Made by a program: the position numbers and the translations under genes. This document shows, one piece after another, positions 32,401 through 62,045 of a stretch of 64,000 nucleotides of DNA (positions within the stretch are counted from its first letter, which is position 1; every line of letters begins with the position of its first letter). This DNA is from Siphonodentalium dalli (Eukaryota; Mollusca; Scaphopoda; Gadilida; Siphonodentaliidae): assembly GCA_032622095.1 (NCBI GenBank), contig CP136061.1, positions 66,281,127 to 66,345,126 of the forward strand. The letters run 5' to 3'. The notes beneath the pieces were generated by a model. That model was not told the origin of the DNA. It saw only the letters and a list, made by a program, of their open reading frames with translations, and made no database searches.

Positions 32401-35400
32401 TGTCAATATCAACATTCATGACAAGTTTCATAATGATCGGAACAGGGATGTGGTGATTATGGTGTGCCAAAGGATTTATTGATGTAAAGAGTAAATGCTA
32501 AAATGGCCACCGGCAGCCATGTTTTTTTCCGAATTACCCCAAAATTACCTGTTCCCATCTACAGCCTTTACAAATCTCATAATGATCCGACCAAAGCTAC
32601 GACCTGTAGCCTGTGCCAATGGATTTAGTCATGCAAAGAGTAAAATCCAAGATGGCTGCTGGCGGATATGTTTTTTAGCCAAATCACCCCATAATCACTC
32701 GTTCCCATCTACATGTTAATATTAACATCCATGATAAATATCATGATGATCAGACGAACAGTACGACCTGTAGCCCGTGCCAATGGATTGAATTTTGAAA
32801 TCTAAGATGGCCGCCAGCGGCCATGTTTTTTGGCCGCATGACCCCAAAATGACTCGTTCCCATCTACATGTCAATATTAACATTCATGACAAATTTCATA
32901 TGACCTGTAGCCCGCGCCAAAGGATTTAGTCATGCAAAGAGTAAAATTCAAGATGGCTGCTGGCGGCCATGTTTTTTGGCCAAACGACCCCAAAATCACT
33001 CGTTCCCATCTACATGTCATTGTTAACATCCATGACAAATTTCATGAAGTTCTGACCAAAGCTACAACCTGTAGACCGCGCCAAATAATTTAGTCATGCA
33101 AAGAGTAAAATCCAAGATGGCTGCTGGCGGCCATGTTTTTTGGCTGAACGACCCCAAAATCACTCGTTCCCATCTACATGTCAATATTAACATCCATGAC
33201 AAATTTCATGATGATCAGACGACCTGTAGCCCGCGCCAATGGATTGAATTTTGAAATCCAAGATGGCGGCCAGCGGCCATGTTTTTTGGCCAGATGACCC
33301 CAAAATGACTTGTTCCCATCTACATGTCAATATCAACATTCATGACAAATTTCATAAAGATCAGACCAAAGGTACGACCTGTAACCTGCGCCAAAGGATT
33401 TAGTCATGCAAAGAGTAAAATCCAAGATGGCTGCTGGCGGCCATGTTTTTTGGCAGAACGACCCCAAAATCACTCGTTCCTATCTACATGTCAATATTAA
33501 CATCCATGACAAATTTCATGATGATCACGAACAGTACGACTTGTAGCCCGCGCCAATGGATTGAATTTTGAAATCCAAGATGGCCACCAGCGGCCATGTT
33601 TTTTGGCCGAATGACCCCAAAATGACTCGTTCCCATCTACATGTCAATGTCAACATTCATGACAAATTTCATAAAGATCAGACCAAAGGTACGACCTGTA
33701 GCCCGCGCCAAAGGAAAAGTTGACGGACACACGCACACACAGACAGACGCACGACCATGGCAATAGCTCGAACTTACAAAGTAAGTTGAGCTAAAAATGT
33801 TATTATACAATGTTGTGTACAGTATGAGATTTTCTTGTACTCTTCCGGGTTGTGGTGAAAAGTCATATTGGACTCGACACTGCGTGTCTTGTCCAATATG
33901 ACTTTTCACCACAACCTGGACTCGTACAAAAAATCAAAATACTGTACACAACATTGTATAATAACTTTATATTATTTTCTATAAAGGCATTCTAAAGTAA
34001 AGTGACTTATTTCTGATGCAGGCGAGAAAAGTCTCTCCGAACTGAAATGACATTTGGCTTGATGGAAAGTTCTAAACATTTCTGCATGTCACCTTCTAAA
34101 TAAAATTGATATCAATTGATAGAAGCTTATCTATTATTTTATATCCTGGAATCTATAAAACATGATAGGAACACATCATCATTAAGGGTTATAGTCAGTT
34201 ATCCTCTCACCCATGTCTTTGGAGGTTTTTGTTTTGTGAAACAATGTGTATATACTTGTACTGTATGTGTATGTGAAAAGAGAAAGCAAAATTCCAAAAA
34301 AGTATGAAGAAAATTTCTGAAATTGTCATTCCACAAAGGTGTTATTTTTTGTTGTTGAAAGAATTCTGCAAAATGTTTATGACGTGACTATTTTGCAGAA
34401 AATATCTACGGAATTCCACAACACTTTTGAGACGTGCCCTAATCACTCATTTGTCCTAATATGTAATCTTTGAATACCAAATTAACCCTTACTTTGCTCC
34501 AATACTCCTTGACTAGTAGTTCCCATAAGAAATGTTCAATATTTGTTGAACTTATTACCAAAACATTTCCCATGCAAGCCTTGAAATAGTGTGTCTGTCA
34601 TTTGCAGAATGAGGGTCCCCAGAGGGTGAATTTAGTGATGCTACCCCGCATAGCAGGCTAGCATCACCAAATTCACCCTCTGGGGACCTCATTCTGCTGA
34701 GGTGTAAGCAGAATGAGGTCCCCAGAGGGTGAATTTGGTGATGCTAGCCCGCTATGCAGGGTAGCATCACTAAATTCACCCTCTGGGGAAGTCATTCTGC
34801 AAATGACAGACACACTATTTCAAGGCTTGTTCCCAGGAATGAATAGGAACTTTATTTTCTTATCTATTTGTCTATCTGCTCATATTTCCTGCACACCCAT
34901 CCATATGAATAATAGGCCACTCCGTTATATTATAGGGAGAGCTTGGGCCACAGTGAGAGATGGCAACTGACCTTGATTTGACCTTTCTGACGACTTCCAG
35001 CATATACTGGTCAGGAGTGGTTACATTAAATGCCATGAACATTGGGTGGCGAATTGGAGCTGGTAGCTATAATGAAAGAAACAAAACAATCTGAAAAACT
35101 AAGAGTAAAAGCCATGATTGCAATATAAGAATGAACATGGAACTGTTCCAGGCCTCTAAAACTTATATTAATATTTTGATTTATCCCAAAGAAGACAATA
35201 TCAGGGTTCCCACACCTGAGACAAAGCTAAATTCAAGGAGTTTTCCAGGAGTTTTCCAGGAGTTATGAGGAAAATTCAAGGAGTCAATACTAATACTAAG
35301 GTACCATATATTTTTGTTGTCACTTACAATGTTTTTAGGTGTAATGTTACACTAAACCGAAAGGGTAATAACACAGCCTGTTCTTGTTGTTGCAGTTAGA

Positions 35401-38400
35401 CCTCTGGGCCCTTATATAATAGTCAAAAAGAGACAACTTTGCAATCTTGTATGTTATACTATAACCATGGTCACCCCTCCAGTATCTTACATGGACATCC
35501 AATTGTTTTTCCTGTAGTTTCTTGTTTAGGCTTTCATCAAATAACAACACGAACACAGACTCCTTATTTATAACATCCTTCAGTAAGCCTGACAAATAAG
35601 GTGCAATGCCAAAACAGGTTAAATATTTACTCTTGGATTCTCCACATGCAAATGTTTTAGCCACCTGACTATCTGGAAACATTTTTTGGAATAACTTGTT
35701 TGTCTTTTCAGATGACCGGTACGAGTAATTGTCATCAATCATTTTCATACACCACAGTATCTCTGCCGTCAGTGTATCGGTTTTAGCTGCTGCCGCGGAA
35801 ATAGGCAATTGTGACTGCTGCGTGGGTACATTTTGATTTGTCATACTAGCATTGCTTGTGGAAGGAGTGGTACTGTTATTTGCTGAAGATGCTGGCATTT
35901 GATAATTAAAGTTGGCAAGCGTCTGCGATGAAGTCTGTCCGCCACTGGCTGTCCTGTGCTTTTTTGATTTGGTGTGGCTGACCAACGCCGATTCACCCAT
36001 ATTCGCTACATCAAACGAACTTTTGCAAAGGACACAATACGCACGATGTTTATCTGAACCATGACGCTGAACCCATAGTTTGTATTGATCCTTTGTTAGC
36101 CAATCCGGATTAAAAATACACTTCCCACCGGGCATTGTTATTGACAAAAGAATTTGACACAATTTTCACGCTTCACGCACGTGTGTAAAACACAAAAGAT
36201 ATCCCATAATTTAACTTCTTCCTGGTAAAAATATACAATAATAGATTGGGGATTTCCAGTGTTACTGCATACCCCAACTATAGTCTGTTTCATTATAAAT
36301 GCTCTGTATGTGGTAGACATAATTTGTCGCTAGATTGGCGACTACGGAAGATTCTAAATAAATATTATTAACATTAAAAGGGCATCATGAACCAATAATA
36401 CTAAAATTTAAGGAGTTTTCCAGGAGATTCATATACCTTTATATATTTAAGGAGTTTTCCAGGGCCCTTGAAAGGTTATTACCAAATTCAAGGAGTTTCA
36501 AGGAATTTCAGGAGGTGTACGAACCCTGAATATGCACAGCCATAGAAAAATTACCAATCTGTCGAAAATGCATTTTCATTCCTATTTGAGAAAGATTTAC
36601 ACGGAAAATTAAATAAATGTGCTAAAAATACACGAACTAAGGACCCTAACTCAGATAAAAGAAATTGGACAATACTGAGTTTCGACTCAAATCAAGGTAT
36701 TGTTGTGAAAGATCCATATACTAAATATGAATGAAATTGGTTGACGTTTGTACAAGTTATCGTGTTAACACACATCACATTTCTATAAATAGAAAAAGTG
36801 GCATAACTCTAGAAAAGTCAAAAGAAACAAGTGGCATAACTCTAGTTAGAAAGTCTTGGCGGACCTGATTTTCTGTGTACAGCTGACGCACATGACAATT
36901 AACTCACATACAAAAAAATTGTTAGAATCCATCAATAAATTGCTATGTTATAAAGGTTTGTTGCCACCAACCGTCCCTCGCCAAACAATGTCAAGCTCAA
37001 CTAAAAATTGACAGAAAAATATAGCAATAAAAGCTCGGACAAAGTTGCATCAATGGATGGACAAGCTGATTCCTATATACACCCCCATAACTCATTAAAG
37101 GGGGTATAATTATTAAGAAATGGAATGAACCGAGAATGCTCTTGGAATAATGAGCACAAACTGTTGTCACATTATCATGCTCATGGGAATGACTATACTA
37201 TGCTACTCCAGTTAAGATAGGAAGACAAATCATACCTCTGTGAGAGAATACTTTCTGCTTACTGACCTGTTTATCTGTGCGTTCACAATCTTCTTGGTGC
37301 TGCAACAGTTTAGCTTGCTCTTCCTTGTGTAACTCCAATGCTTCCATCAAGCGCTCAGCCTATGTTGGAGAAATATAATTATATCAAACTGAAGCCTCAG
37401 GTCATAGGAATGTATTAGGAAGAGTACAGTCGGCAATAACCTCCCCATATCTCAATAAAAACCTTACATTCGCCAACAAGTAATCAGGAGTTGCTGGCCT
37501 GTGTGTTTTTGGAAAACAATTCATCAGAAATCTATCAGTTATTTCTTTTGTGCATTTCATTTTCTTTTGCTTTGCCTTCTGTTATTATCATGTTTCGTTT
37601 TAGTTCCAATTTTCTAAATTATACTACATTCTGTTTTTTTATTTGGCCAAAAAATTCAGAAAAGTTTATATAATTGGCCAAAGGAATTTTCTGGCCAGAG
37701 TGAACCCTGAGGGAGAGGTAAATCATCAAGTTGACAAACTTATGCCCCAATTCCCTTGTATATCACTTGTATACAACAAACTATGCTTAACCCTTTGAAC
37801 CCCGATGCCCCACAGCAATCGACACCCTGACCCGGGGCTCCCCGTGGTATTTTCCATTAATTTAGATAGTGTCTTGTCGAATGATGAATTGTGATACAGG
37901 TCTGATACTTTACAGGTTTGTCCCCCCATGGATCACTATCATTATAAGATCGGGAGACTTTGCCACATGGCAACTCCTTGGTATTGGTTGCTAGGCAACT
38001 ACCCGGAATTGACTTGAAAATGCAGTTATAGCTTATAGAATTGTAACTCAAGGCCAGTGATTGCATTATCGATGCAGGTAATACCCTAATGTGAAATTTG
38101 AGAAATACCATTCCAGATTTGAAGAGTGAACCAAATTTGTTATTTTAAGATAGTAACGGTTGCTAATCAAATACCACAAATGATCGAATGACATCATTGC
38201 ATTAATCATTCAGTGGTATTTTTACCTTAAAAATGCTTGTTTTTGTGAATTATAGCCTGTGCTATGCGCATATATTCCTACCCAATACGAGTGGGCAACC
38301 ATTCCATGTATACACCCTGGCCACTGCTGAAGTGTATGGGGGCATTTAAATATAAATTAGTCGGTCTGTATAAGTACGCTATAAAATGTGAGGGTAATTT

Positions 38401-41400
38401 AAACTGAAACTATTTGTCTGAATTATGTCTGTTCTATAAACATGTGGAAGATGAAGCTATATGCCGTAAATATAGTAAATGGATTAGGGAGACTAGATTT
38501 CTATCCATTCAGCTAATTTGTGCTCAGTGAGTTTAATTTAGTGTGGAATGTGTTTCAAATGGACATATAAAATGTGTTATCACACATGTAATACAATCAG
38601 CAGGATGACAAATTTCTATGCCACATTTCAGAAAGAATAGCTTTATCTTGATCACTTTTGTCCAAGACAGTTCATTAATGACTTATTATAGGATGTATCA
38701 CATACTCACTGATTTGACAGTCTCTATTGTTTTCTTGCCAGCCATTGCAACTTCTGTAGTTGTTTCTCCAGCGACCTGCATGGGAGAAAAAGATACACAT
38801 GAATATGATTCGACTAGATTGTTTCAGCGCTGCCTATAGAAGCTATTGACCTCCAGCCAATATATAAAAAAAACTGACAAGTACATTGACACTCAGACAT
38901 CATACCTGTGCATGGAATATCAAGCCAATAGTCACCATGAATGATAAAGTAGAAATAAAATGCAATGGTAATGTAGTGTATAACATTTCTCAAATGTGTG
39001 GTCAAACAATTGTCAATTTAACTAAGAAATACTGCAGGAAAGAGAAAAATGTAAAACATTAAATATGAAACAGAGGATTCAGTGTGATATAGTTTTCATC
39101 CTATAAAACTGACAAATATGCTGAGGCTAACATTTTTCTATTATACATCCATACTGAACACAGATGTAAAATGTTATTTGTGTGCTCTAGTTCTGTACTG
39201 ATTATGGGCCTACTTCAGGGGAATTGCAGTTGTCATTGCTTTCAAGCAAACACAAATTTAGTATCTTGCAAAGAATGTGTTTAAAAGTAGGGTCGTATGA
39301 GTATTTAGTTTCCATTCAAACCGAATAACCAATAATATTCGCGAATCGAATTGATTCAGTACACATGTAATTTCGAAGTGAAGACGTTAACCTCTTGGCT
39401 GCTATACTCGGCTATCATTCAGACCTGTATAATCTCCTGTTTGCCCCATGACTCTCCCAATTTGAGGCCTTAAACCCTGCATTCCCGCAACCTCCATATA
39501 ATCTCACGGTTTGGGGAAATACATGCAATAAAAATTATTTATTTAAGAAATTTGATGACGGTAACCAGGAAGTAAATAGGCAAGTCTCTTGTACACGTCC
39601 TGCCAGTGAGATTCTTGCAATGATAGGTGTGTTTTATTGTCTATCTGATTTCAAAATCTTCCTGAAAAAGACTCCAAAACTCCTTGACAGCTAGAACAAA
39701 TCTCCTGGACAACATTATACAGATCTGCTATCATTCATGATCGGAACTAAAAAATAAGTGAACTGGAACCAGTGTATCTCAATGTTTTGAAGTATATGGT
39801 GTTCCATGATTCTGTATGATAATAACATTTGCATGAAGTCTGTTTTAGCATTTATGTGACATACTGTAATATTTTCCAATGAAAATCAGACCATAACGTC
39901 AATGATCCAGCACATGACGTCATGATGTCATTCAGAAGTGAAGAGGTTAAGAGCTTACTCACCACAGGCTGTCCATGCTGCACTGACTCTTCAAATTCTT
40001 TCTCTCTTTCCTGTTGATACAATAGTAATGTCAGTTGTAATCACAAAAGGTCTCGCTAAATGAGAATCTGAGATCATTTGTCCTTAATCTCCAGGAAGAA
40101 TTATTACATATCAAAGCACATAATATGGTGGTATAAAACTTCTACCAAATCAGCTTTATTATAATTTATTAAATGTTTTTAAGTTTTTAACTGATTAATA
40201 ACGCCTATCAATTTGCTGACATTAATTTGTAGTCTTGTTTTGCAAATTGACTGAGATCAGCATAAAAGAAATAACTCTTAAAATATATATACTTCATGTT
40301 TTCACCAATTCTGTAATAATAGAGGTGGGCTGACCCAATGGGAAAAAGGATTTTCTGCATGTTGTATACATTTTTTAGGTCGAAAAAGGGAGATAGCTCC
40401 ACACAAAAAAAGTCTGACAGACCTCATAATCGCAGATTCCCATGATAATAAATATCTGTGCCAAGTTTAAAAAAATATATAAATAAAAGCTTGGATAAAG
40501 TTGCGTCGACAGACTGACTGAGGGACACGCCGATTCCTATACACCCCCTCATTACTTGTTACGGGGGTATAACTAGAGGTGGGCTGTCCCAATGGGACTA
40601 CAGATGCCCCCCCCCCCCCCCCCATGGCAGCCAGTCTTCTACATGTTGCGAAAATATTTAAGCCGGATGACTCCCCAAAAAAAGTTGGATGGACTTCATA
40701 ATTGCAGGTGCACAGGATTCCTATATACCCCCATACCCCATAACACGTTGCGGGTGTATAATAACTAACCATTTCCCTTTCCTCATCTAATACAATAGGT
40801 TCTCTTGTTTTCTCCCACAGCCTGATGCACTTATCATTGGATGCTGAAGCCAAGTAGTTCCCGCTAGGTGAAACAGCCAAACACCAAATCTGAGAGAGAT
40901 GTCCCTAAAATACAAGAGTCAATGAAACTAATGTTAAAGATAGTCTATCTTTATCGGGTATAAAATAATAGATATGAATCAAGGACAACTGTCCGCAAAA
41001 GGTTATATCAAATAATATAAATTTTATTTAGAATTTTTTATCACATCCGAGGGACAGTTTTAAGTGCTATTTTTATATCAGAAATCCATGCGAAAATGTT
41101 CAGAGCATACCAAGAAGAACAACTCTATCGCGTTAGAGCCTCAAACACAGCAAATTGATATATAAAATACAGATTTACAACGATCTTTCTTATGCCTTTA
41201 TTGACAAATAGTGTACAGTCTTCATTTTTATCTGCATTTTATTCACAAAATAGCTGCAGATGTCCAAATAAATTGGTGTTTTGCATTTAAATATTATCTG
41301 ATGAATCAGAAGAAGTTTCATGCTGATTCAAAGACAGACGTTATGTGTACCCCAGTATTTAACCATTGGATGAATCATCATGACTGAATATTCATTGACG

Positions 41401-44400
41401 AGTATTTCATTTGGGAAATGTCCCGACTGTTTATTGAATTTATTATAATAACATTCCCTGTAATTGACTTAAAATTAGTTGTATGCCATCTACACTTTTA
41501 ATATCCCACGTGTAGATGTGGCATAGAATTCATTTCAACGGAAATTCATGATTATTGGCAATAATTAGTACCCGAGTTACAAGGTGATATGTTCGGACAG
41601 AACAAAATTAACAAATTTCCAAGTCAAACAAGGGCCGTAACTCTGGTAAAAATTAATGGGTGAAACCCGTAGTATCTGGGTATCCTTTCCCCCAGCCTGT
41701 GCTATCACCATGACAAAGGACAATGAAATCTGATAAGAAAAAACCCGAGTTACAAGGTGATATGTTCAGATGGACGAACAGAAATTTCTAAGTCAAACTA
41801 GGGCCATAACTCTGGTAAAAATGAATGGACGAAACCCATAGTATATGTGTATCATTCCCCCCCCCCAAACCTGTGCTATCACCATACCAAAGGACAATGA
41901 AATCTAATAATTAACACCCGAGTTACAAGGTCATATGTTCGGAAGGACAGACAGCCGGACGAAGCCCTCGGCTAATATGCCCCGAAGGTCGGGGGCTTAA
42001 TAAGAGGCTATTTTAATGTATTCTTTTATAACTGAATGGCAGAATACATTCAGGAAGTAAAAGGTTAACAACCAGTTCACCATTTGCCATCAACCCTTTC
42101 AGATAATAAGTTCAACGGCCACAGGCCGTTTGTTGAACTTATTATCTCAAAATTTAACTCCAGTGAATACTAATACTTCATCACTCATATTATATGTTAG
42201 TATATTTCATGAACATCCCTCCCAGATTAATAATAGACCATTCCAATGTACAGTTTTATAACTGAATGGGGGAATCTAGTTAGTAAACAAAGGGTTAAAT
42301 ATATGACCAGCAAAGTTTGTTCCAGCTTTTCATAAACCTGCTTAGAAGCAGAAGTAGATGGAGAAAAACTGGGGATTACTGTCCCAGAAATAATTACAGA
42401 TGAGGTATGTACCACAACTGCACTCAAATTTCTGGTGCACTGTGCATGTTAACAAAAAGAGCGATAATGAACTATTTCATGAATTACATATCTAGAGGCA
42501 AACTTGCATATTAGAAGTATGGTACCCCTTTCATGACTGGAACTGCGTTGGTGCAGCATTAAAGATCCTGTGCCAGTGCACTCTCTATATATCCGAGTCT
42601 CCCTCAGACAGCCTCGCATATATAAGATAATGAATGCACTGGCTTAAAAGGTCAAGGTAGATATTGTTAGGCCAATGTATTCTCTTATATATGCGAGGCT
42701 CCCTATGGGAGACTCACATATAAAAGAGAATGCATTGGCACAGGGTTTTCGCAAGATCTCAGGAATGTCCAGTCATGGAAGGGTTAAAGGCACAGGCAGC
42801 GTTCGTTGCAGAAATATTCATATTTGTTCAAATCGTCATCAACAGAAGGAATATTAAAATATATATAGTTTTGTTTATATGCCAAACATAATCAGCGTGT
42901 AAATAGTATATTGTCGTCAAAACGTACGATGGAGTACATAAACAAGAACCTGCACGTGCTACAGAAGTTTTGCTTCTGTTTACATAACACAGCGCAATTC
43001 TATAGGTTAATCACACACAAATGATATAAACGCTCTTTATTATTTCCATATCAGGAAAACAGTAGCAAATAACGCTCTTTATGTTCACCATATCCGGATC
43101 TAAACAAAAGCCAGGAAACGTAACGTTTTTTGCCTTTGTTTACATAACAAAGGAAAAACATTTGACAACTAGAATGCACTCACTGGAGCTGCCTATACTT
43201 GCGCCCATCACACATTTGGCATGTTGTGTGGTGTCTTGCCAACAAAAGTTTGAACCACGGGTGCTGGCCCCTCGTTTGAGAGATCGATAACAAAAATCTA
43301 GATATCAAATCTCTGTTCATCCATCGCTGAAATAGTTGTGTGTACGGACATAATATCCCTGTTATGATGATATGGACCCCAGTTGGCTGCATATTAGGAA
43401 CGATAACTCTATCCGATCTAATTACAGGTGAGACATATTGGTAGTGTTTTTTACCTGTTAACCAACTATCAGATTTAGGCCACTCCGATGCATGGTGTAT
43501 TATCTACATGTATATTATGTGAGGACCTTGATGGGGATAGCTTCAGTCTTGAATGTTAAAGTGACACACTGCGCTCGCTGAACGAAGTCTCTCCATGTGA
43601 ACGATGTATTATCTACATGTATATCACGTGATGACCTCGATGAACGATGGGCAGCTTCCGCCCTGAATATTAAAGGGACAAAATGCACTCAGTATTTGAA
43701 TATTAAAGGGACAATAGTCTCTCACGGGGGATGATTGTTAAAGTGACACAAGGCACTCACTATGGATGAATGTTAAAGTGACACTAGGCACTCACTGTGG
43801 GATAATGTTAAAGTGACATTCGCATTGAAAACTTCAAAAACTTCAAACGCGTTGACGTGCGCGTTACTAGGACTGACCTGCAGTTTATAAGGGTATACGT
43901 CTTGGATGGTAATTTGGCACCTATAAAAATTACTAAGTTTTTTGAAATTTGTGAAGTTTTTGAAATTTGTGAAGTTTTTGAAATTTTAGAAATTTTTGAA
44001 GTTTTTGAAATTTTAGAAATTTTTGAACTTTTTGAAATTTTTCAATATTGTTCATTTATGAACGATTTATTACCAAAATAAAACCAGATAACAATGCAAA
44101 TTAAATATATATGTGGATTTAAATTACAATCAATGCAACCATTTCATATTAGCGCATGTGGGGTACTGCGTTATGCAGTAGGTCCCTAGATTTGCGTAGG
44201 TCTCCGTAGGTCACTCAATTCGCGTAGGTCCCCGCAGTAATGCAATACATAGTAGGTCTACATGATTTATTGACTGATAAAATGGATTGATACCACTAAA
44301 TGATCATGTTAGATGTTACTTTGCATATAATTTTTATAATTAATTTCCGAAATCTGAAATTGTATGCTCTAAAAGTCACATAAATCAATGCAAAAATACA

Positions 44401-47400
44401 ATCAGTTATCCTCCAATTAATATCTGTCCACGAAGCCAGTGAGATAATCCTCTTACTTTCCGGATCAGAAATCGCGTAATTTTAGTTAGGCTTCATCCTC
44501 AAAGTATCACTAAGCAAACAAACCCATCAGATTTCGGAAATTAATTATAAAAATTATATGCAAAGTAACATCTAACATGATCATTTAGTGGTATCAATCC
44601 ATTTCATCAGTCAATAAATCATGTAGACCTACTATATATTGCATTACTGCGGGGACCTACGCGAATTGAGTGACCTACGGAGACCTACGCAAATCTAGGG
44701 ACCTACTGCATAACGCGTCACCGCGCATGTGCAGTCTTTACATTTTGTACTTCCGGAATGACGTAACATATTCACGGAAGGACAGACAACAGACAAAGAT
44801 CCGGACCGAAAACATTACTTGCGTCCAGCATGGACTGGCGCAAGTAATAACATACTGTTTATGCCATATTTCTGATTTGTATAAGAATAAAGTCTGTCTA
44901 TATTTTACTATTCTTTCTGTTTATGGCGGTTTTTGACGGAGCTGAATATTTTAACAGCATACTGACCGCCAACGCCGCCCGTATCTTTAAGACTCCATGA
45001 CACATATACTGAGTCCATGCCTCCATAAATCATATATATATATTGAATATATTATTCATGTCCAAGTCATCTGAGTCCAGTACAAATATTGAAAAATAAT
45101 ACCATACAGAAATTCATTTCATTCAATTTATTGCTTCAATGTATTGTTCCAACTTTTGCAATGCCCAAAATTATGCAACAAAAGGCATATGCCAGCAAAG
45201 AGTTGAAATTAGTGTCCCAGAAATAATTACAGTGGGATATGAATCACAACTGGACTCAAATTTCTGGTGGAAGTGTACACAAACACAATATACGGCTGCT
45301 ATATAAAGTTTTTATAGCTTTGTCTTTGTCAAGTAGGAGATGGAGACAAAGAATGTGATGGACCATGAGAGATCAAGCACCTAGCGATGCCAGAGACTGG
45401 TGATAGATTTATACTTCCTGTATCTGGGCAAACTAGAAAAATTGTTGATGATATGATAGCATCAGAAAATACAGCCTTTCCCAGAAATAACAGTTTGAAT
45501 TTTTTTTATGATACCTATTGGTGTCATCATTGAAATGTTAATATGAAACCAAGTTTGATGTAACCCTCGATTTTCAGTATATATCTAAATAAACATTGTT
45601 ATTCCAGTTTGGCAAAAGTATATATTGTAATTAAGCTAGATTATTTGTGATTAAATCCACTGATCTGAAATGCTCAATTGGAGCAGTTTGTAAATATCTG
45701 GACAAACAAAAGGATACTAATAATAGTAATACCATCTATATTGACCAACAGTTTATTGGGATGTAAAAAACTGGTTTAATCCCTATGAATGTATGAAGTT
45801 CTGATGAAAACAATAATTAACCCTTTCTATACTAAATACCCTTTGATGAGTTGTTCCTTAGGAAATGTTAAGATAATAAATAGATTGTTAAACTTATTGT
45901 CTGAAGATTTCCCACCAAAGAATATGAATACTTCTGCACTTGCATTTGCTTTTGTCTGCTTTTATTACCTGAACATCCCCCCAAATGGATAATAAACCAT
46001 TCCAATGAATACCTTTACTGAATGAGAGAATCTATTTAGTAAAGAAAAGGTTAATAAACTGATAATACCACATTTTATCCACAAACGTTGAAGCGATGAA
46101 CACAATCATGGATTAAAAATATTCGACACAAGGGGTGTGGAATAAAAACAGAACACAACTTGCGTCATAATCTAGAATATTTATGCCTCAAATCATTCGA
46201 TATAAGATTCTTGATTAAGATGCGCATTGTATTCTGTCTATTTACTAACACATTGTATTCTGTCTATGTACTAACACATTGTATTCTCTCTATGTAATAA
46301 TGTATTGTATTCTGTCTATGTACTAACACATTGTATTCTGTCTAAGTACTAACACAGTGTATTCTGTCTATGTAATAATGTATTGTATTCTGTCTATGTA
46401 CTAACACATTGTATTCTGTCTAAGTACTAACACAGTGTATTCTGTCTATGTAATAATGTATTGTATTCTGTCTATGTACTAACACATTGTATTCTGTCTA
46501 TGTACTAACACATTGTATTCTGTCTATGTACTAACACATTGTATTCTGTCTATGTACTAACACATTGTATTCTGTCTATGTACTAACACATTGTATTCTG
46601 TCTATGTACTAACACATTGTATTCTGTCTATGTACTAACACATTGTATTCTGTCTATGTACTAACACATTGTATTCTGTCTATGTACTAACACATTATAT
46701 TCTGTCTATATACTAACGCATTGTATTCTGTCTATGCACTAACGCAATGTTTTCTGTCTATGTACTAACGCAATGTTTTCTGTCTATGTACTAACGCAAT
46801 GTTTTCTGTCTATGTACTAACGCATTGTATTATTTCTATGTACTAACATCTAGAGTTTGAATCAGCTCAAAGTTATCTCCATCCCATTCCTTGATTTTCT
46901 TGTCTTTTCCTCCTGAGAAGAAATAGTGTGTCTTGCCAACAAATTGCAAACACATAATGCTGAAGAAACATAAAAGTCAGTTATTTTATCGAAGAAGATA
47001 AATGTAGGCACATAGGTCAAACTTTTATTGGATCTCCAATTGCCAGAATGATTGGTATCGATGAAAACAAGAGCATTGCTAGGGTGTGGCAAGATATCCC
47101 TGTAGTAATTTCAACAAAGGGCCATAACCAGTAATCCATATGCCAAATTTGAAAAAAAATCAGATAACTAAAACTAAAGTTATCACCAGGAAACCAAAAT
47201 AATCGGCAAATTCTAAGTCGACAAGGACCATAACTCAGGCAAAAATTGGAGGACCGAATCCAAATTCTAACTTGACGTGTATTTTGGGCTAGTAAACTCA
47301 CATACCTAGTTTCATTCCATTCAATTCAGATTTACTAAAGTTATTATCCGGAAACAAAAATCGAGTACAAATTTTTTTTTAAAAGAAGGGCCGTAACTCT

Positions 47401-53400: not shown

Positions 53401-54769
53401 ATTCGAACTTGGCCTGTATCTTTAGCTGGGAAATACACATATCAAATAATCCAAACTGGAGTTACCGATCGGAAACCAAAATGTTAACGGACGGACGGAC
53501 AGACAGACAGACGGAAGGAACGACAGACGGACGGACGGACGGACTGATAACATAATACGACCTTTTTTCAAAAAGGGCGTATTAAAAGGGGGCATTATTA
53601 TAATCTTTATGCTCAAAGTGCCTACCTTGGTTAAACATGAAAATGATTCTATGTGCATATATTTTGTATACAGGAATGACATGTGTTGACAATAGAATTT
53701 GGGAAAATAACTATGTGAGCTTAGTCGCAGTTGTCTTAACACACACTGCTGTAAACTCATAGATTTATATAAGCGCACATCAAATTTAGCTTGCAGTACA
53801 AACTGACATTATTAGTACAGTGAGAAAAGTTACCTGTATTTTACACATAGAACATCTTCATCCATCTTCAGCACCTTTGTCTGCTGCAGTGATAACCTTT
53901 TGCTGAAGAAAATAGATACAATAGTTGGACATTTCACAGACTGGACATTTCACAGACTATTTACAATATTTATGAGAACATCATTCTATTGCACCATTCA
54001 AACCATGGCAACTAAAATAGATACTGTTGAGAAAATCACAACTCTGCAGAGATGAATTATTATAGTCATTCACTGTAGAGAGTAATGTGATGTGGTCAAT
54101 GGATTAGATTATCAGTGTCGGTTCATTCAGCACCATGGAGAGTAATGTGATGCTGTCAATGGATTAGATTATCAGTGTCGGTTCATTCAGCACCATGGAG
54201 AGTAATGTGATGCTGTCAATGGATTAGATTATCAGTGTCGGTTCATTCAGCACCATGGAGAGTAATGTGATGCTGTCAATGGATTAGATTATCAGTGTCG
54301 GTTCATTCAGCACCATGGAGAGTAATGTGATGCTGTCAATGGATTAGATTATCAATGTTGGTTCATTCAGGCCTGAAAATATGGTGCCGGATATTTGCAG
54401 AATGAGGTCCTAAATTACCCAGCACAGTGGGCTAGCATCACCAAATTCATCCTCTGGAACCTCATTCTGCATTTTCTGTATTTTGTAGTAGTGATCAACA
54501 TACCAAATTTCATTCCATTGAGTTCAGTAGAACTAAAGTTGTTCAGTTATCATCAGGAGACGAAATATGAACGGACGGACAGACAAAGCACATAAAACGT
54601 CCGGTTTTTAAAACAGGCGCATAATAAGCTGAAAAAAATCATGCCCAATAAATACAAAAAAGTATTATATCTTTTGAACTTACCTAGTCAGAGAATATGC
54701 TTCATCAGATATTAACTCAAAGCTCCAGAACTTGACATTTTTATCAGCACCTCCTGTAGCTATACCTCT
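23310..54769 (-). CDS. WDR3: WDR3 (Utp12/Dip2 homologue), 3' two-fifths of the gene
   Basis: Twelve exons on the minus strand, 5' to 3': 54769-54684, 53902-53834, 51121-51049, 48921-48764, 46959-46848, 40904-40770, 40010-39963, 38775-38710, 37359-37267, 35066-34972, 30619-30491 and 23462-23310. Phases agree from the first to the eleventh. WDR3 is a nucleolar WD40 protein of the UtpB part of the small-subunit processome and acts in 18S rRNA maturation. The sequence follows the family in order: [121 protein letters not shown] and FFADAT. The family's first eight or so WD repeats are not in the window. A short penultimate exon was not located. Introns are large and full of transposons. Confidence 0.93.
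23507..23745. mobile_element. Hairpin MITE (TTAACCCTTTCATGAC family)
   Basis: From TTAACCCTTTCATGATGGG to TCCAGTCATGGAAGGGATAA. The interior has AATGCATTCTCTTATATATG, GCGAGGTTCCCTATGGGAGAC and AACAATATTTACC-type blocks. One end is about 45 bp upstream of the acceptor of the last WDR3 exon. Confidence 0.85.
23835..24060. mobile_element. Hairpin MITE (TTAACCCTTTCATGAC family)
   Basis: From TAACCCTTTCAGCTG to CCAGTCATGGAATGGATAA. The centre can fold: GCGAGGCTCCCTAT pairs with ATGGGAGACTCGC and the flanking TATATAAGAGAA segments. Confidence 0.85.
24089..25728. mobile_element. hAT-like transposon with G-rich inverted ends
   Basis: Left end CAGGGGGGGGTCTGGAAAAA then ATATAGGGCC; right end GGCCCTATATACGG then TTTTTGCAGACCCCCCCCTG: inverted repeats of about 40 bp beginning CAGGG. 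The direct flanks are AAGAATG at 24082-24088 and 25729-25735 (7 bp; an 8-bp hAT duplication with one lost base is possible). The interior has no transposase domain that I recognise. Confidence 0.75.
25808..26998 (+). mobile_element. Pearl/HINE-like element, copy 2, interrupted by a TTAA MITE
   Basis: Starts ATGAAATTGTCAATAACACT then GTAGCTAAACTTGGAG. Holds about four diverged core units with GGCGGCCATGTTTTT, and reaches ATGGCAATAGCTTAAACTTG near 26485. The 3' hairpin is broken by the MITE at 26516-26984 and finishes as AAGCTAAAAGG. Confidence 0.65.
26516..26984. mobile_element. Complete MITE with TTAA target duplication
   Basis: TTAA at 26512-26515 and 26985-26988; termini AGGTACTCAATCCG and CGGGTTGAGTACCT. 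Both halves carry inverted versions of a common block (GGCTTCGGGGGT on the left, ACCCCCAAAGCC on the right), so arms of about 150 bp could pair despite divergence. The right half equals positions 1-202 of the window. piggyBac- or Kolobok-mobilised type. Confidence 0.85.
26999..28004. other. Intron sequence, no exon seen
   Basis: Part of the WDR3 intron between the exons at 30491 and 23462. Open frames at 27010-27225 and 27704-27988 show no family. I looked here for the missing WDR3 exon and did not find it; the frame at 26985-27167 with a possible donor does not match WDR3 in sequence or phase. Confidence 0.5.
28005..29985 (+). mobile_element. Pearl/HINE-like element, copy 3, interrupted by a hAT-like element
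   Basis: Units with TGGCGGCCATGTTTTCC, CCAAGATGGCTGCC and AAGATGGCTGCTGGC run to 28541. The hAT-like element 28542-29907 intervenes. The last piece, GGTTGTGCTAACAG to CCATGGCCATAGCTCAAAC and ACTTCGAGTTAAAAATG, ends at about 29985. The 5' end is not clear. Confidence 0.6.
28542..29907. mobile_element. hAT-like transposon with perfect 8-bp target duplication
   Basis: Ends CAGAGCTGAAACGGTT and AACCGTTTCAGCTCTA. Direct duplication GTAGGTTG at 28534-28541 and 29908-29915. Several AACCGGTTAACC palindromes crowd both subterminal regions (28590-28620 and 29860-29890), as expected for transposase-binding sites. The 1366-bp interior has no transposase domain, so it is non-autonomous. Confidence 0.88.
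30262..30384. repeat. 25-bp tandem array
   Basis: About five copies of GCGATATCAACACCGAATCA plus CACAG. As 25 is not a multiple of three, all three plus frames stay open across it; these are not genes. It lies about 110 bp beyond the donor of a WDR3 exon. Confidence 0.9.
30491..30619 (-). CDS. WDR3: WDR3, Utp12-domain exon
   Basis: Acceptor GTTGCAG, donor TCTCAG|GTAAGA. One base completes a Ser codon; reads [20 protein letters not shown], then [20 protein letters not shown] and LL. This is the core of the C-terminal Utp12 domain, which in the family mediates contacts between UtpB subunits. Leaves in phase 2. Confidence 0.93.
31317..31484 (-). pseudogene. Short acidic ORF with internal stop, possible dead transposase N terminus
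   Basis: From ATG at 31484 the minus strand reads [20 protein letters not shown] then [11 protein letters not shown], an in-frame TAG, then a further acidic run ([20 protein letters not shown]) to TAA. A basic KRKR followed by acidic Ser/Asp-rich sequence resembles the N terminus of piggyBac-type transposases or other nuclear proteins. No catalytic region follows. Weakly supported. Confidence 0.3.
31720..31910 (-). promoter_or_regulatory. Cluster of CCAAT boxes with E-box and TATA-like motif
   Basis: On the minus strand, three related 22-bp stretches with a GACCAAT or GGCCAAC box followed by ATAAT(A) spacing lie at about 31890, 31820 and 31768. Then come CACGTG (31723-31728) and TATTTATAAT (about 31730-31740). 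The acidic ORF starts 240 bp further on. The order resembles a promoter, but this is pattern only. Confidence 0.25.
32283..33798 (+). mobile_element. Pearl/HINE-like element, copy 4 (8 core units), best preserved
   Basis: 5' end AATGAAAGTGTCAATGACAC then TGTAGCTCAACTT; 3' end CATGGCAATAGCTCGAACTT and ACAAAGTAAGTTGAGCTA. Eight core units of 140-165 bp in an A-B alternation. Each has AAGATGGC followed about 10 bp later by GGCGGCCATGTTTTTTGGC and a CTCGTTCCCATCTACATG block. Units are very alike. No ORF of note. It lies in the WDR3 intron between exons 34972 and 30619. Confidence 0.75.
33799..33965. repeat. Large near-perfect palindrome (foldback MITE)
   Basis: Left arm GTTATTATACAATGTTGTGT to AAAGTCATATTGGACTC and right arm its inverse ending ATTGTATAATAAC, with a loop of about 13 bases (GACACTGCGTGTC, itself partly paired). 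Arms of about 75 bp with few mismatches. The inner CATATTGGACTC block recurs twice at 30836-30880. It abuts the end of the pearl-like element directly. Confidence 0.85.
34482..34940. mobile_element. TTAA-type MITE split by a hAT-like MITE
   Basis: Left half (TTAACCCTTACTTTGCTCC, TGTTGAACTTATTACC) and right half (AATAATAGGCCACTCCG) match the intact copy at 45817-46054. A 255-bp foldback element sits between them at a TTCCCA site. The right end is eroded and stops about 30 bp from a WDR3 splice donor. Confidence 0.75.
34575..34829. mobile_element. hAT-like foldback MITE (GCAGAATGAGGTCCCC family)
   Basis: Termini CAAGCCTTGAAATAGTGTG and CACACTATTTCAAGGCTTG are perfect inverted repeats, and each arm contains a second palindrome (GGTGAATTTAGTGATGCTA and inverse). 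Flanks TTCCCATG and TTCCCAGG give a 7 of 8 match, consistent with a hAT 8-bp duplication. Confidence 0.85.
34972..35066 (-). CDS. WDR3: WDR3, exon between linker and Utp12 core
   Basis: Acceptor CATTATAG, donor TCAAG|GTCAGT. Reads [20 protein letters not shown] then [11 protein letters not shown]; leaves in phase 2 and joins the exon at 30619 to give SELEESLL. Family members have the same stretch just before the Utp12 domain. Confidence 0.92.
35202..36528 (-). mobile_element. hAT-like element carrying a truncated transposase
   Basis: Ends CAGGGTTCCCACACCTGAG and CAGGAGGTGTACGAACCCTG are imperfect inverted repeats. Inside both ends, AAGGAGTTTTCCAGGAG is repeated several times in opposite orientations. 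The 5-bp AATAT flanks both sides; a full 8-bp duplication is not seen. It lies in the WDR3 intron in the same orientation as the host gene. Confidence 0.75.
35347..36135 (-). pseudogene. Truncated hAT-type transposase-like ORF
   Basis: Open frame of about 262 codons from the MPGGK start at 36135 (an upstream ATG at 36162 adds nine unlikely residues). The N terminus reads YKLWVQRHG and [19 protein letters not shown], then SHTKSKKH, giving C-x2-C...H-x4-H, a BED-like zinc finger. Then a Ser/Thr/Asn-rich linker and the stretch [20 protein letters not shown], later [21 protein letters not shown] recognise this layout from hAT-related proteins common in invertebrate genomes. The catalytic remainder and hAT dimerisation region are absent; it ends LCYYPFGLV then stop. 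Intact frame suggests recent origin. Confidence 0.6.
36640..37110. repeat. Dispersed repeat with GGGGGTATAATT 3' stem
   Basis: Contains GCATAACTCTAG twice and the end AGCTCGGACAAAGTTGCATC, then GATTCCTATATACACCCCCA with an inverted GGGGGTATAATT about 15 bp later. The same ending occurs at 40480-40572 and 40720-40762, and a variant at 49940-49980. Confidence 0.6.
37267..37359 (-). CDS. WDR3: WDR3, linker exon
   Basis: Acceptor AACATAG, donor AAACAG|GTCAGT; 31 codons in phase 0. Reads [20 protein letters not shown] then [11 protein letters not shown], a charged helix that follows KKTIETVK in the family. Confidence 0.92.
37360..38709. other. Intron of WDR3, no exon seen
   Basis: Holds short open frames without family. 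A patch at 37789-37850 (AACCCTTTGAACCCCGATGC) resembles the start of other TTAACCCTTT MITEs but has no visible partner end. Confidence 0.5.
38710..38775 (-). CDS. WDR3: WDR3, exon with GKKTIETVK motif
   Basis: Acceptor CATGCAG, donor AAATCA|GTGAGT; 22 codons, phase 0. Reads [20 protein letters not shown] and KS. The GKKTIETVK string is strongly conserved in WDR3 proteins. Confidence 0.92.
39387..39950. mobile_element. TTAA-bounded element next to a WDR3 splice donor
   Basis: Left terminus TTAACCTCTTGGCTGC, right terminus GTGAAGAGGTTAA: a 10-bp inverted repeat with TTAA at each edge. The sequence just outside the left end (GAAGTGAAGACG) also resembles the right end, so a more complex origin is possible. 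The right end is 11 bp from the GT of the exon at 39963. Confidence 0.55.
39963..40010 (-). CDS. WDR3: WDR3, 16-codon exon
   Basis: Acceptor ATCAACAG, donor CCTGTG|GTGAGT; phase 0. Reads [16 protein letters not shown], the acidic stretch after EEREM in the family. Confidence 0.9.
40322..40762. repeat. Two dispersed-repeat copies ending in a C5/G5 stem
   Basis: GAGGTGGGCTGACCCAATGG at 40323 and GAGGTGGGCTGTCCCAATGG at about 40575 begin two related units. They end with TACACCCCCTCATT...GGGGGTATAACT and ACCCCCATA...GGGTGTATAATA. A C run lies at 40611-40623. The second unit stops 6 bp from a WDR3 splice donor. Confidence 0.7.
40770..40904 (-). CDS. WDR3: WDR3, WD40 exon
   Basis: Acceptor TATTTTAG, donor GAAATG|GTTAGT; 45 codons, phase 0. 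Reads [20 protein letters not shown] then [20 protein letters not shown] and EEREM: a complete GH-to-LW WD repeat, the last of the second propeller. The frame continues into repeat DNA past the donor; that extension is not coding. Confidence 0.93.
40950..41275. repeat. About 310-bp repeat shared by two WDR3 introns, copy 1
   Basis: GGTATAAAATAATAGATATG at 40958 begins a stretch that aligns by eye with 47810-48130 (shared TATGCCTTTATTGACAAA-like and CTGCATTTTATTCAC blocks). Mobile element or internal duplication; ends not defined. Confidence 0.6.
41359..42068. mobile_element. Degenerate TTAA-type MITE split by a tandem repeat
   Basis: Left part TTAACCATTGGATGAATC to about 41560; right part ATAAGAGGCTATTTTAATG to AAAAGGTTAA. 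Homologous to 45817-46054. The middle is the three-unit array at 41565-41998. Confidence 0.6.
41565..41998. repeat. Three tandem units of about 170 bp (GGGCCGTAACTC type)
   Basis: Each unit reads ACCCGAGTTACAAGGTGATA, TGTTCGGA, then AAGTCAAACAAGGGCCGTAA and CTCTGGTAAAAAT, with CTGTGCTATCACCAT and GACAATGAAATCT. Starts at 41570, 41745 and 41917. Related to the arrays at 47040, 49270 and 51320. Confidence 0.8.
42091..42296. mobile_element. TTAA-type MITE with internal hairpin
   Basis: AACCCTTTCAGATAATAAG at the left, CAAAGGGTTAA at the right. A perfect hairpin, GATAATAAGTTCAACGGCC pairing with its inverse across ACA, lies at 42102-42147. Same family as 45817-46054. Confidence 0.8.
42523..42786. 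mobile_element. Hairpin MITE (TTAACCCTTTCATGAC family)
   Basis: ACCCCTTTCATGACTGG at the left, CAGTCATGGAAGGGTTAA at the right. The interior contains both CCTCGCATATATAAG and GCGAGGCTCCCTATGGGAG. Lies in a WDR3 intron. Confidence 0.85.
43545..43822. repeat. Imperfect tandem repeat around GTTAAAGTGACA
   Basis: About seven units of 30-50 bp with GAATGTTAAAGTGACAC or ATTAAAGGGACA followed by a GCACTCACT-like string. Unit length varies. Confidence 0.75.
43931..44043. repeat. 15-bp tandem repeat, GAAATTTTAGAAATTTTT type
   Basis: Seven to eight imperfect 15-bp units made of TTTTTGAAATTTGTGAAG and variants. A plus frame reads as [12 protein letters not shown] and is not a gene. Confidence 0.85.
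44161..44722. mobile_element. Foldback MITE with about 200-bp arms and 9-bp target duplication
   Basis: Direct duplication GCGCATGTG at 44152-44160 and 44723-44731. The arms (44168-44375 and about 44515-44716) are nearly perfect inverses, running from GCGTTATGCAGTAGG through GCGTAGGTCCCCGCAGTAAT to TTCCGAAATCTGA. The loop is about 140 bp. A 9-bp duplication suggests Mutator-type mobilisation. Confidence 0.85.
44732..45816. other. Intron of WDR3, no exon seen
   Basis: A 55-bp motif at 45213-45268 (CCCAGAAATAATTACAG to CTCAAATTTCTGG) recurs at about 42382-42435; both copies have inverted CCAGAAAT ends. Nothing else is recognised. Confidence 0.5.
45817..46054. mobile_element. Complete TTAA-type MITE (reference copy of family)
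   Basis: TTAACCCTTTCTATACTAAA to TTTAGTAAAGAAAAGGTTAA, 238 bp, with inverted ends (CCTTTCTATACTAAAT and ATTTAGTAAAGAAAAGG) and TTAA on both sides. Copies at 14402, 34482, 41359 and 42091. Confidence 0.85.
46205..46850. repeat. 26-bp tandem array abutting a WDR3 splice donor
   Basis: About 24 copies of TGTATTCTGTCTATGTACTA plus ACACAT, with a higher-order variant (TAATAATGTATTG) in the left part. Read on the minus strand each unit contains GTTAGTACATAGAC, and the exon donor at 46847-46846 is the first such string. The array therefore begins at the exon border. Confidence 0.95.
46848..46959 (-). CDS. WDR3: WDR3, WD40 exon
   Basis: Acceptor TTTCTTCAG, donor CTAGAT|GTTAGT. One base completes Ser; reads [20 protein letters not shown] then [17 protein letters not shown], and joins GHLSQIW of the next exon, giving the usual D-GH start of the next blade. 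Reading on past the donor meets TAG after three codons. Confidence 0.92.
47040..47520. repeat. GGGCCATAACTC-type tandem repeat, three units
   Basis: Units carry GGGCCATAACCAG, GGACCATAACTCAGGC and GGGCCGTAACTCTGGTG, each followed by ATTGG(A/T)GG and a TTGACCTGTATTTTG-like block. Begins with AACAAGAGCATTGCTAGGG, the shared 5' motif of this family. Confidence 0.75.
47810..48130. repeat. About 310-bp repeat shared by two WDR3 introns, copy 2
   Basis: GGGTATAAAATAATAGATAT occurs at 47816 and again at 47872, so the left edge is itself duplicated. The rest aligns with 40950-41275. Confidence 0.6.
48217..48658. mobile_element. hAT-like foldback MITE with perfect 8-bp target duplication
   Basis: CATATAAT at 48209-48216 and 48659-48666. 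Termini CAAGCTTGCAAATAGTGTG and CACACTATTTGCAGGTTTG. Arms as in 34575-34829, with a 190-bp spacer that begins and ends in inverted AGGCCT-type strings. Lies about 100 bp from the donor of the exon at 48764. Confidence 0.9.
48764..48921 (-). CDS. WDR3: WDR3, WD40 exon with [10 protein letters not shown]
   Basis: Acceptor GTTCCAG, donor GACAG|GTGGGT; begins in phase 0, leaves in phase 2. Reads [20 protein letters not shown], then a complete blade through [20 protein letters not shown] and IFAHDD. Near identical to the corresponding blade in WDR3 of other animals as I know it. Confidence 0.95.
49270..49985. repeat. GGCATAATACACCC / CCGGCCGGA dispersed repeat with C5/G5 3' stem
   Basis: Starts CAACAAGAGCACACCATCGG, has three units containing AAAAATCTTTTAAATC and GGCTTGCGAACTCATTC, a GGACGGACGGACGATGCGA stretch, and ends ATATCCCCCGC...GCGGGGGATAATA. 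The 5' and 3' signatures are shared with other repeats in the window. Confidence 0.7.
50286..50940 (+). pseudogene. Degenerate LINE fragment (jockey/CR1-like, 3' part)
   Basis: Scattered pieces in three frames match the region after the RT catalytic core: [10 protein letters not shown] near 50300, [15 protein letters not shown] near 50500, [15 protein letters not shown] near 50600, then [10 protein letters not shown] and [15 protein letters not shown] at 50755-50830. Many stops and frameshifts. A different family from the LINE at 885-3800, judging by WNSLPDYVV. Confidence 0.75.
51049..51121 (-). CDS. WDR3: WDR3, WD40 exon
   Basis: Acceptor GTTCCAG, donor CTAAAG|GTAACT. One base completes Ser; reads [20 protein letters not shown] and DTLK; leaves in phase 0. 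Confidence 0.93.
51320..53580. repeat. Long GGGCCATAACTC-type array (about 14 units)
   Basis: Units of 110-170 bp: (A)GGGGCATAACTCTGGTGA, AAATTGGCGGGCGGAACC, then TTCGAACTTGACCTGT, CACATACCAAATTT and AAAGTTATCATCCGGAAACC. Two CCTCCGAACCCGTTGGGTCG ends (52250 and 53160) and a final GGACGGACGGACAGACAG run mark several head-to-tail element copies. The start motif ACAAGAGCATCGCTAGGGC is at 51317. No coding potential. Confidence 0.85.
53834..53902 (-). CDS. WDR3: WDR3, WD40 exon
   Basis: Acceptor TTCTTCAG, donor TACAG|GTAACT. Reads [20 protein letters not shown] then KY between split Ser codons. Family members have the same DEDVLCV string here. Confidence 0.92.
54079..54370. repeat. 60-bp tandem array
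   Basis: About five copies of a 60-bp unit (AGAGTAATGTGATGCTGTCA, ATGGATTAGATTATCAGTGT, CGGTTCATTCAGCACCATGG), three of them identical. Lies in the WDR3 intron between exons 54684 and 53902. Confidence 0.95.
54386..54475. mobile_element. Fragment of hAT-like foldback MITE (GCAGAATGAGGTCC family)
   Basis: GCAGAATGAGGTCCTAAATT, then GGGCTAGCATCACCAAATTC and GGAACCTCATTCTGC. One arm pair only; termini lost. Confidence 0.75.
54684..54769 (-). CDS. WDR3: WDR3, first exon visible in the window (WD40)
   Basis: Acceptor CCTTTTCAG, donor GACTAG|GTAAGT. Starts on a codon boundary, reads [20 protein letters not shown] then SDEAYSLT, leaves in phase 2. In the family it follows a DAH-x-GA-x-WS blade; no exon for that was found upstream to 64000. 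Confidence 0.93.
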
Positions 54770-55424
54770 CTGAAAAGGTAAATAAACAAGAGACCGATCA
54801 CGATCCGCAGATGTTTAACCCATACCTCCAAACATACTGACTACCACAATTGAAACCATCAATCTGGAACTAAATATACACCTGTACATGAAATGTGAAG
54901 CTGATGGGAAATAGACTTTATATATGGCATAACACCATAATCTATCCACATTTGTGCTAAACGTTAAAGTACATCATCACATGTGTTAAATAGGTTTAAC
55001 ATACCTATGAGAGGTTTTTCATCATAAACTAGAATATGGAATATGAGAATGACCAGATAAGTTACTGTTTCGGATAGCATGTGTCTATATATGGCATGAT
55101 TAGAAAGGATAATATTTTCAAAAACTATCAAAAGATACTGAATCTATACAGGTGAAGAGTGTGCATGATAAATCTGGATCTGAATTACTAGTATGACAAT
55201 GATTGGGTGAAAAACTTTGTGTCTATGGAATGGGTGGACTGGATTAATATATTCAAAGGCAATCAACCAAACAATACCAAAAACAAGAGATGTGGCGATG
55301 TATCATGTTGATAATTTTGAATATGAACACAAGTAGATAAACAAGTATTGCTCTGGATAACATGTGTTCATGGCATGTATAGAATGGTTAATATTTTAAA
55401 ACTGATCATTCCTCATAAGAAATG

Positions 55425-57160
55425 TCAAGAGCGATGAGAATAATGATGTACCCCAAGAAACAAACAGGTTGAGAACTAAGCTGCCTGTCATATGTAACCT
55501 TAGGATAAATTGATATCCCTGGCGTTTACTACACACAAAGTAATGATACAGAGTGTGTGAAAGCTCCAGGTTATAACGAAAGCTAAAGACGGTTGTTGGA
55601 CTAAATGTACACTGACGTGGGTGGCAAAGTGGTAAGTTTGATGGATTTTCAGTCAATGAAGCACAATATATTAGGTTTGATAAAGATATAAAGCTGCATC
55701 TAATTCAAGCAATAATATGAGACAATGTATCCCAAGAAACAAACAGGTTGAGAACTAAGCTGCCTGTGATATGTAACCTTAGGATAAATAAATATCCCTG
55801 GCGTTTACTACACACAAAGTAATGATACAGAGTGTGTGAAAGCTCCAGGTTAAAGAGAAACCTAAAGATGGTTGTTGGATTAAATGTAAGTTTGATAAAG
55901 ATATTAAATCTGCAGCTAATTCAAGCAATAATATGAGACAATGTATCCCAAGAAACAAACAGGTTGAGAACTAAGCTGCCTGTCATATGTAACTTAGGAT
56001 AAATTAATATCCCTGGCGTTTACTACACACAAAGTAATAATACAGAGTGTGTGAAAGCTCCAGGTTAAAGAGAAACCTAAAGATGGTTGTTGGATTAAAT
56101 GTAAGTTTGATAAAGATATTAAATCTGCAGCTAATTCAAGCAATAATATGAGACAATGTATCCCAAGAAACAAACAGGTTGAGAACTAAGCTGCCTGTCA
56201 TATGTAACCTTAGGATAAATTAATATCCCTGGCGTTTACTACACACAATGTAATAATACAGAGTGTGTGAAAGCTCCAGGTTAAAGAGAAACCTAAAGAT
56301 GGTTGTTGGATTAAATGTAAACTGATGTGAATGGCACATCGTAAGTTTGATGGATTTTCAGTCAATATATTAACCCTTCCATGACTGGAGCCTCGTGAAA
56401 TTTTGCAAAAACCCTGTGCCAATGTATTCACTTGCATATTTAAGATAATAAATTGGCCTAACAATATTTATCTTGACCTTCTATTCTCTTATATATGCGA
56501 GGCTTCGTATGGGAGACTCGCATATATGAGAATGCACTGGCATCTTTAATGCAGCACCAACGCAGCTACCATCACGTAAGGGTTAAGTTTGACAAAGACT
56601 CTTATATCATCAATCTAAGTCAATCAAAGAAAGTGTACCCCAAGAAACAAACAAGTTGAGCACTAAGCTACCTGTGATATGTAACCTTAGGATAAATTAA
56701 TATCCCTGGCGTTTACTACACACAAAGTAATAATACAGAGTGTGTGAAAGCTCCAGGTTAAAGAGAAAGCTGAAAACCGTTGTTAGATCAAACATCTGCC
56801 GATGTGGAGAAAAATTGAAACATTTTCAGTTAAAGGGACCCAAGGCTTTCAAAGTGGTTTCATGCGAAATAGATAATAGATTCACTTTGCTCTTATTTTC
56901 ATTACGGTATTAATAACTCTCCAATAATGATATTTCGCACATCAAAATCATTATGTAAACATTTCTATTACATTAGAATTACCGCTAAAAATCCAATTAG
57001 TCCAATAAGATACAAAAATTTTGTTCCCCAAGTAACAAACAAGTGTGCACTAAGCTAACTGTCATATGTCAACTTAGGATAAATTAATATCCCTGGCGTT
57101 TACTACACACAAAGTAATAATACAGAGTATGTGAAAGCTCCAGGTTAAAGTAACCTCTCT
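55425..57160. repeat. 218-bp tandem repeat, six copies
   Basis: Shared blocks: CCCAAGAAACAAACAGGTTG, AGAACTAAGCTGCCTGT, CCCTGGCGTTTACTACACAC and GAAAGCTCCAGGTTA. Copies centred near 55523, 55802, 56019, 56238, 56710 and 57098. The middle three have an exact 218-bp period. A hairpin MITE separates the fourth and fifth. No exon found. Confidence 0.9.
56371..56586. mobile_element. Hairpin MITE (TTAACCCTTTCATGAC family) inside the 218-bp array
   Basis: TTAACCCTTCCATGACTGG to CATCACGTAAGGGTTAA, inverse orientation relative to 42523-42786. Internal GCGAGGCTTCGTATGGGAGA hairpin present. Confidence 0.85.
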
Positions 57161-57215
57161 CAGTAGAAAGCCATTCCAAAGGTGTCCTAGGAATGGTCTG
57201 TAAGCCATGATAATA

Positions 57216-57444
57216 TTAACCCTTTAATGACGTGAGTTGTGCTGATGCAGCATTAAAGATCCTCTGAGAGTGCATTCTCTCCCATATAGAGCCATGCATA
57301 TATAAGAGAATGTACTTAAATACTGTTAAGCCCATGTGTTCTCTTATATATGCAAGGCTCCCTTTGGGAGACCCGCATATAAAAAAAGAATGCATTGGCA
57401 CATGTTTTCGCAAAATTTCAGGAAGCTCCCTTCACAGGGGTTTA
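57216..57444. mobile_element. Hairpin MITE (TTAACCCTTTCATGAC family)
   Basis: TTAACCCTTTAATGACGTGA to CTCCCTTCACAGGGGTTTAA. Internal GCAAGGCTCCCTTTGGGAGA hairpin. More diverged than the other copies. Confidence 0.8.
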
Positions 57445-61245: not shown

Positions 61246-61284
61246 ATAAGTGACATTTTATTTTTTATTTGCCTGATATACTTA

Positions 61285-62037: not shown

Positions 62038-62045
62038 TATATTTA

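Follow-up and report, generated by a model that had tools for sequence, protein, structure and literature searches.

A 26-bp minisatellite that begins at the first base of a WDR3 intron in the scaphopod Siphonodentalium dalli: a probable duplication of the 5' splice site region, with decoy donors that are probably mostly silent

Tandem repeats that lie across exon-intron boundaries are known from amphioxus, where such minisatellites have been called "mirage"; they were named in Adh3 (Canestro et al. 2002) and are also described from the globin genes BflGb6 and BflGb9 (PMC3087553). In a 64,000-nucleotide stretch of the Siphonodentalium dalli genome (contig CP136061.1, positions 66,281,127 to 66,345,126; hereafter the window), a 26-bp minisatellite adjoins a splice donor, and the donor motif recurs in most of its units. 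This raises the question of how a tandem array came to begin exactly at a 5' splice site and whether the many copies of that site compete with it.

The gene carrying the array was identified as WDR3 (UTP12) from profile, structure-sequence and homology matches. A 129-residue join of the array exon and its two neighbors matched the Pfam profile PF25172, the WDR3 second beta-propeller, at 226.5 bits (cut-off, 140). The same three-exon join matched residues 588-716 of human WDR3 (PDB 7mq8_LQ) at 222.1 bits in a single stretch; the many-repeat WD40 protein 2ymu ranked first by total score, but in 13 short stretches. Introns were placed by homology, not RNA, using a human WDR3 query. All 12 modeled introns are GT-AG, and the joined exons form one open frame on the minus strand that starts inside an exon near 54.7 kb and reaches a stop near 23.3 kb. 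The gene identity proposed by the first-pass annotation was thus borne out by the PF25172 and 7mq8 matches and by the frame open to the stop. Since the gene model is intact in both its 12 GT-AG introns and its frame, correct splicing is presumably achieved; the open frame across 12 introns shows only that correct splicing would yield a protein. Exons for the N-terminal half of WDR3 (up to about residue 500) were not recognized at 54 to 64 kb (54790-64000, minus strand), which suggests either an upstream intron of at least 9 kb or diverged exons. At the same end of the window, a 386-bp tandem repeat (62841-64000; 3.0 copies by TRF) runs off the window end. The parts of the gene model that bear on the array are as follows.

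46848-46959, minus strand: WDR3 exon of 112 nt in the second beta-propeller (gene model; by tblastn, residues 635-672 of human WDR3 are matched at 65.8% identity).
40905-46847, minus strand: WDR3 intron of 5943 bp with the array at its 5' end and the acceptor TTTTAG (gene model).
40770-40904, minus strand: the next WDR3 exon, whose donor is also GTTAGT and where the array is absent (gene model).
46842-46847, minus strand: 5' splice site GTTAGT, with which repeat unit 1 opens (position from homology and the reading frame rather than from RNA).

Read on the minus strand from 46959 to 46848, the exon ends in ...CAA ACT CTA GAT and is followed directly by GTTAGTACATAG, as the first-pass annotation had described. 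On homology rather than RNA, position 46847 is the sole GT from which ...IQTLD continues in phase into GHLSQIW. The array intron also holds a dispersed repeat (45821-46054), with copies at 14405-14520 (79.5%) and 42130-42298 (74.1%), and WDR3 intron 9 holds a 272-amino-acid open frame (35347-36165, minus strand, stop to stop) that by its look is perhaps derived from a transposable element.

The array itself has the following parts.

46224-46847, minus strand: minisatellite of 24 whole 26-bp units from intron position +1, consensus GTTAGTACATAGACAGAATACAATGT (TRF and unit-by-unit reading).
46224-46821, minus strand: units 2-24, with a GTTAGT decoy in 20 units and ATTATT in units 16, 19 and 22.
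46484-46691, minus strand: homogenized core of eight identical consensus units (units 7-14).
46276-46483, minus strand: units 15-22, with a three-unit (78-bp) higher-order pattern in about 2.7 repeats.

TRF placed the array at 46225-46848 (period, 26; 24.0 copies; 91% matches; 0% indels); counted in whole units from the donor, and without indels, the array extends from 46847 down to 46224. The earlier description of GTTAGTACATAG as the core of a 26-bp unit repeated about 24 times downstream agrees with the TRF copy number, and 16 of the 24 units still begin with this string. When up to one mismatch was allowed, the string occurred 21 times in the window, every time inside the array, whereas 100 shuffles contained it 0.42 times on average and never more than twice. 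GTTAGT opens 21 units, nine units are identical to the consensus, and the remaining three begin with ATTATT and have no GT at that place. The GT core that had been attributed to every unit is thus lacking from three of them, and the count of decoys, which had been put at about 24, is 20 besides the real donor. On the plus strand of 46224-46847, opposite WDR3, most units bear a branch-point-like TACTAAC, the complement of the donor core.

At its exon side, the array stops abruptly. The lag-26 match begins at intron position +1, where 46847 and the next 8 bases equal the base 26 positions further on, and none of the final three bases of the exon takes part in it. The adjoining 26 bp of exon agree with the unit at 8 of 26 positions (shuffle mean, 7.2; standard deviation [SD], 2.2), and the 26 bp past the far end of the array agree at 9 of 26 (shuffle mean, 7.4; SD, 2.2). 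The unit thus contains no recognizable exon sequence. A classical mirage arrangement, with exon bases hidden in the unit, was considered and rejected, as comparison of the unit end with the exon end, over stretches of one to eight bases, gives no more than 1/3 to 3/8 identity. Within the array, units 1-6 diverge from the consensus at 2 or 3 sites and unit 24 at 2, while unit 23, which adjoins this far-edge unit, equals the consensus. Apart from unit 23, this pattern is the usual one for interior turnover with older edges. The ending is GC in units 1-5 and 24 and GT in most interior units; because GC is common to the edge units and not the interior, it is probably the ancestral unit ending.

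Two origins had been offered for this arrangement, namely, that the donor region seeded the satellite or that the satellite spread up to the exon edge. Exchange between repeats alters their number, yet on its own it does not shift the edge of an array outward. With its edge at the first base of the intron, the array is therefore better accounted for by seeding from the donor region than by spread to the exon edge. We consider it reasonably probable that this is a mirage-like intronic minisatellite seeded by a 26-bp duplication at the intron start, with the first donor in use and the decoys mostly silent. The 26 bp at the start of the intron, together with the donor that they contain, would have been duplicated in tandem to give two copies, and slippage or unequal exchange would have raised these to 24 units and homogenized the interior. 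Such seeding predicts an ancestral intron with a single GTTAGTACATAGACAGAATACAATGC at +1, followed by GCATCTTAATCAAG. The periodicity from +1 and the whole copy number support this reading because simple duplication of a 26-bp segment predicts both, and the identity of units 7-14 supports it because recent interior expansion with older edges is expected to give such a core. The ending shared by the edge units is a further point in its favor. Against it, the start of the seed exactly at +1, without exon bases, is an unexplained coincidence.

The array might instead be an unrelated minisatellite of the intron, with an edge that came to lie on the donor fortuitously and a unit that happens to match GTTAGT. 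The window is indeed rich in arrays (44 TRF rows), and 16 of them were located in the 12 modeled introns. Under random placement of these 16, the expected number whose edge coincides with a splice junction is 0.015, or 0.030 if a distance of 1 bp is allowed. None of the other 15 intronic arrays touches a splice junction of the modeled WDR3, and the closest of them (53926-53958) comes to within 23 bp of an acceptor. Chance placement of the edge on the junction is thus unlikely, and the 0.015 expectation counts in favor of duplication, although it covers one gene and the feature was chosen by a reader seeking coincidences. GTNAGT, moreover, is expected 0.026 times per 26 bp per strand (window, with the array itself counted). 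On the other side, a 29- to 51-bp minisatellite at 57795-58185 (minus strand, the WDR3 sense) contains the strong donor-like motifs GGAG|GTAAGC and GTAAGT and a total of 17 GTAAG sites, and no WDR3 exon is recognizable there. It is possibly the boundary repeat of an unrecognized exon; as it stands, donor-like motifs without a recognizable exon mean that such motifs in repeats need not imply a donor origin. Because coincidences were sought across the whole window, an accidental origin keeps a real share of the probability, but we regard it as unlikely.

Somewhat less likely is the capture of the donor by an array from elsewhere or from deeper in the intron, which would have inserted at, or extended to, the exon so that its GTTAGT replaced the original site. 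The present donor is weak (T at both -1 and +3), as expected for a substitute. No further copy of the 26-mer was found in the window, however, where even the closest sequence outside the array differs at 7 positions, and an insertion would need to have landed exactly at the exon end. The viral_contigs set likewise gave no exact match to the 26-mer, a result that says little about an animal repeat. The T at +3 as proof of capture was ruled out, since the donor of the next exon (40770-40904) is GTTAGT as well; as no array is present there, the motif is an ordinary one in WDR3, and the +3 T needs no special cause.

The strength of the real donor relative to its copies was assessed by modeled pairing with the U1 5' end and by scores from a donor table. 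The array donor was the weakest of the 12 WDR3 donors in U1 pairing (-2.9, compared with -4.6 for the next and up to -11.4 for the others) and the second weakest on the table (0.05; lowest, 0.03). U1 pairing of the decoys was equal to that of the real donor in 15 of 20 and slightly stronger in 5 of 20 (-3.1 to -3.7), so that U1 pairing gives the real donor no edge over the decoys, a point against the duplication reading with its silent decoys. On the table, all 20 decoys fell below the real site, by 2.9 bits (15 decoys) or 3.7 bits (5 decoys), chiefly because they lack the A at -2. Among the 361 GT sites of the array intron, 25 reach the table score of the real donor, namely, the donor itself and 24 sites outside the array. 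The evidence on decoy strength is therefore mixed. RNA folding was considered as a means of hiding the decoys. In the predictions, 1, 0 and 5 of the 20 decoys equaled or exceeded the real donor in openness at flanks of 50, 100 and 150 nt, respectively, so that the advantage of the real donor is unstable and varies with flank length. Mean openness of the decoys at the same flanks was 0.27, 0.25 and 0.24, compared with 0.49, 0.44 and 0.40 at random places in the intron; the interior of the array is predicted to be somewhat folded.

Use of a decoy, or retention of the intron, would have the same consequence.

46836-46838, minus strand: in-frame TAG after V-S-T, reached on read-through or when the donor of a later unit is used.

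Translation past the junction reads D-V-S-T-stop from the exon onward, in keeping with the claim of an in-frame TAG after three codons. Every decoy lies beyond unit 1, and therefore all decoy products share this one stop. Nonsense-mediated decay would presumably remove such early-stop messages. Under the duplication reading, the spliceosome would pick the first copy, at the exon edge, with the help of the A at -2 and of exon definition, and the 20 downstream GTTAGT copies would be mostly silent decoys, any of which, if used, would give a message with an early stop. The anatomy of the array, its edge at +1, the reading frame with its stop and the motif counts are observed; the duplication origin, the use of the first donor and the silence of the decoys are all points that we infer. 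A functional rheostat is the other possibility, in which the number of decoys would set the share of decoy-using or unspliced transcripts and so tune WDR3 output via early-stop messages. The weakness of the real donor on both measures, the equal or slightly higher U1 pairing of its copies and the common TAG all favor such an arrangement, as do the nine consensus-identical units, which suggest recent turnover and hence length variation. The lower table scores of all 20 decoys speak against it. Moreover, the 24 other GT sites of the intron that score at least as high as the real donor argue that the decoys are no special rivals, and amphioxus mirages are reported, in the account of the globin genes, not to interfere with regular splicing. 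A rheostat is improbable. More doubtful still is its strongest form, in which the weak donor and 20 sites of equal U1 pairing would divert a copy-number-dependent share of WDR3 to early-stop messages, with a fast-mutating repeat setting a dose that differs between individuals. The first-pass suggestion that copy number could tune WDR3 splicing found no support in any result obtained here.

Like the amphioxus mirages as they are described, the WDR3 array is a minisatellite in tandem form that adjoins an exon-intron boundary and repeats a splice signal many times. Its unit of 26 bp lies within the 10- to 72-bp range given for Adh3, and its interior units are homogenized, a process that leaves out the edges (PMC3087553). 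According to the same account, the Adh3 data and globin RT-PCR suggest that regular splicing is undisturbed, though many repeats hold splice signals. In length and form of the repeat (24 units of 26 bp, no indels), in multiplication of the splice site (GTTAGT in 21 of 24, the first being the real donor) and in its homogenized interior and diverged edges (unit 23 excepted, as it equals the consensus), the WDR3 array agrees with the mirages. It differs in that mirage units, as described, usually span the boundary with both exon and intron bases, whereas the WDR3 unit starts at +1 and resembles the exon side no more than shuffles do (8/26 versus 7.2). As its unit has no recognizable exon bases, we treat the array as a variant of the mirage and not as a member of the class. 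Copy number also differs, at 24 compared with 3 and 6 units in BflGb6 (PMC3087553). In lancelet PGBD5, the first repeat copy abuts the 5' splice site, and a likeness to mirages has been drawn in print (PMC3902484); unlike the WDR3 array, those repeats are described as 60 and 108 bp long, overlapping exons and part of the coding sequence, with far fewer copies. In human segmental-duplication genes, boundary minisatellite variation is said to give novel introns via cryptic splice sites (PMC2812944). The internal tandem repeats of that study are, by its account, mostly exonic, in contrast to the WDR3 array, which is wholly intronic, in an intron at a homology-supported position. A search mainly of the open literature, in which WDR3 was not queried by name, brought up no earlier description of this array, nor of any WDR3 boundary repeat.

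If the array did grow from the donor, it would be a clean case of minisatellite seeding at a 5' splice site, resolved to a single base, and a type of boundary repeat first named in amphioxus would possibly occur outside amphioxus. Even if it is neutral, the array marks a likely length-variable spot in a conserved ribosome-assembly gene. It is also a natural setting in which to ask how a cell settles on one of 21 nearly identical donors, and whether repeats at exon-intron boundaries represent a stage in the origin or displacement of introns.
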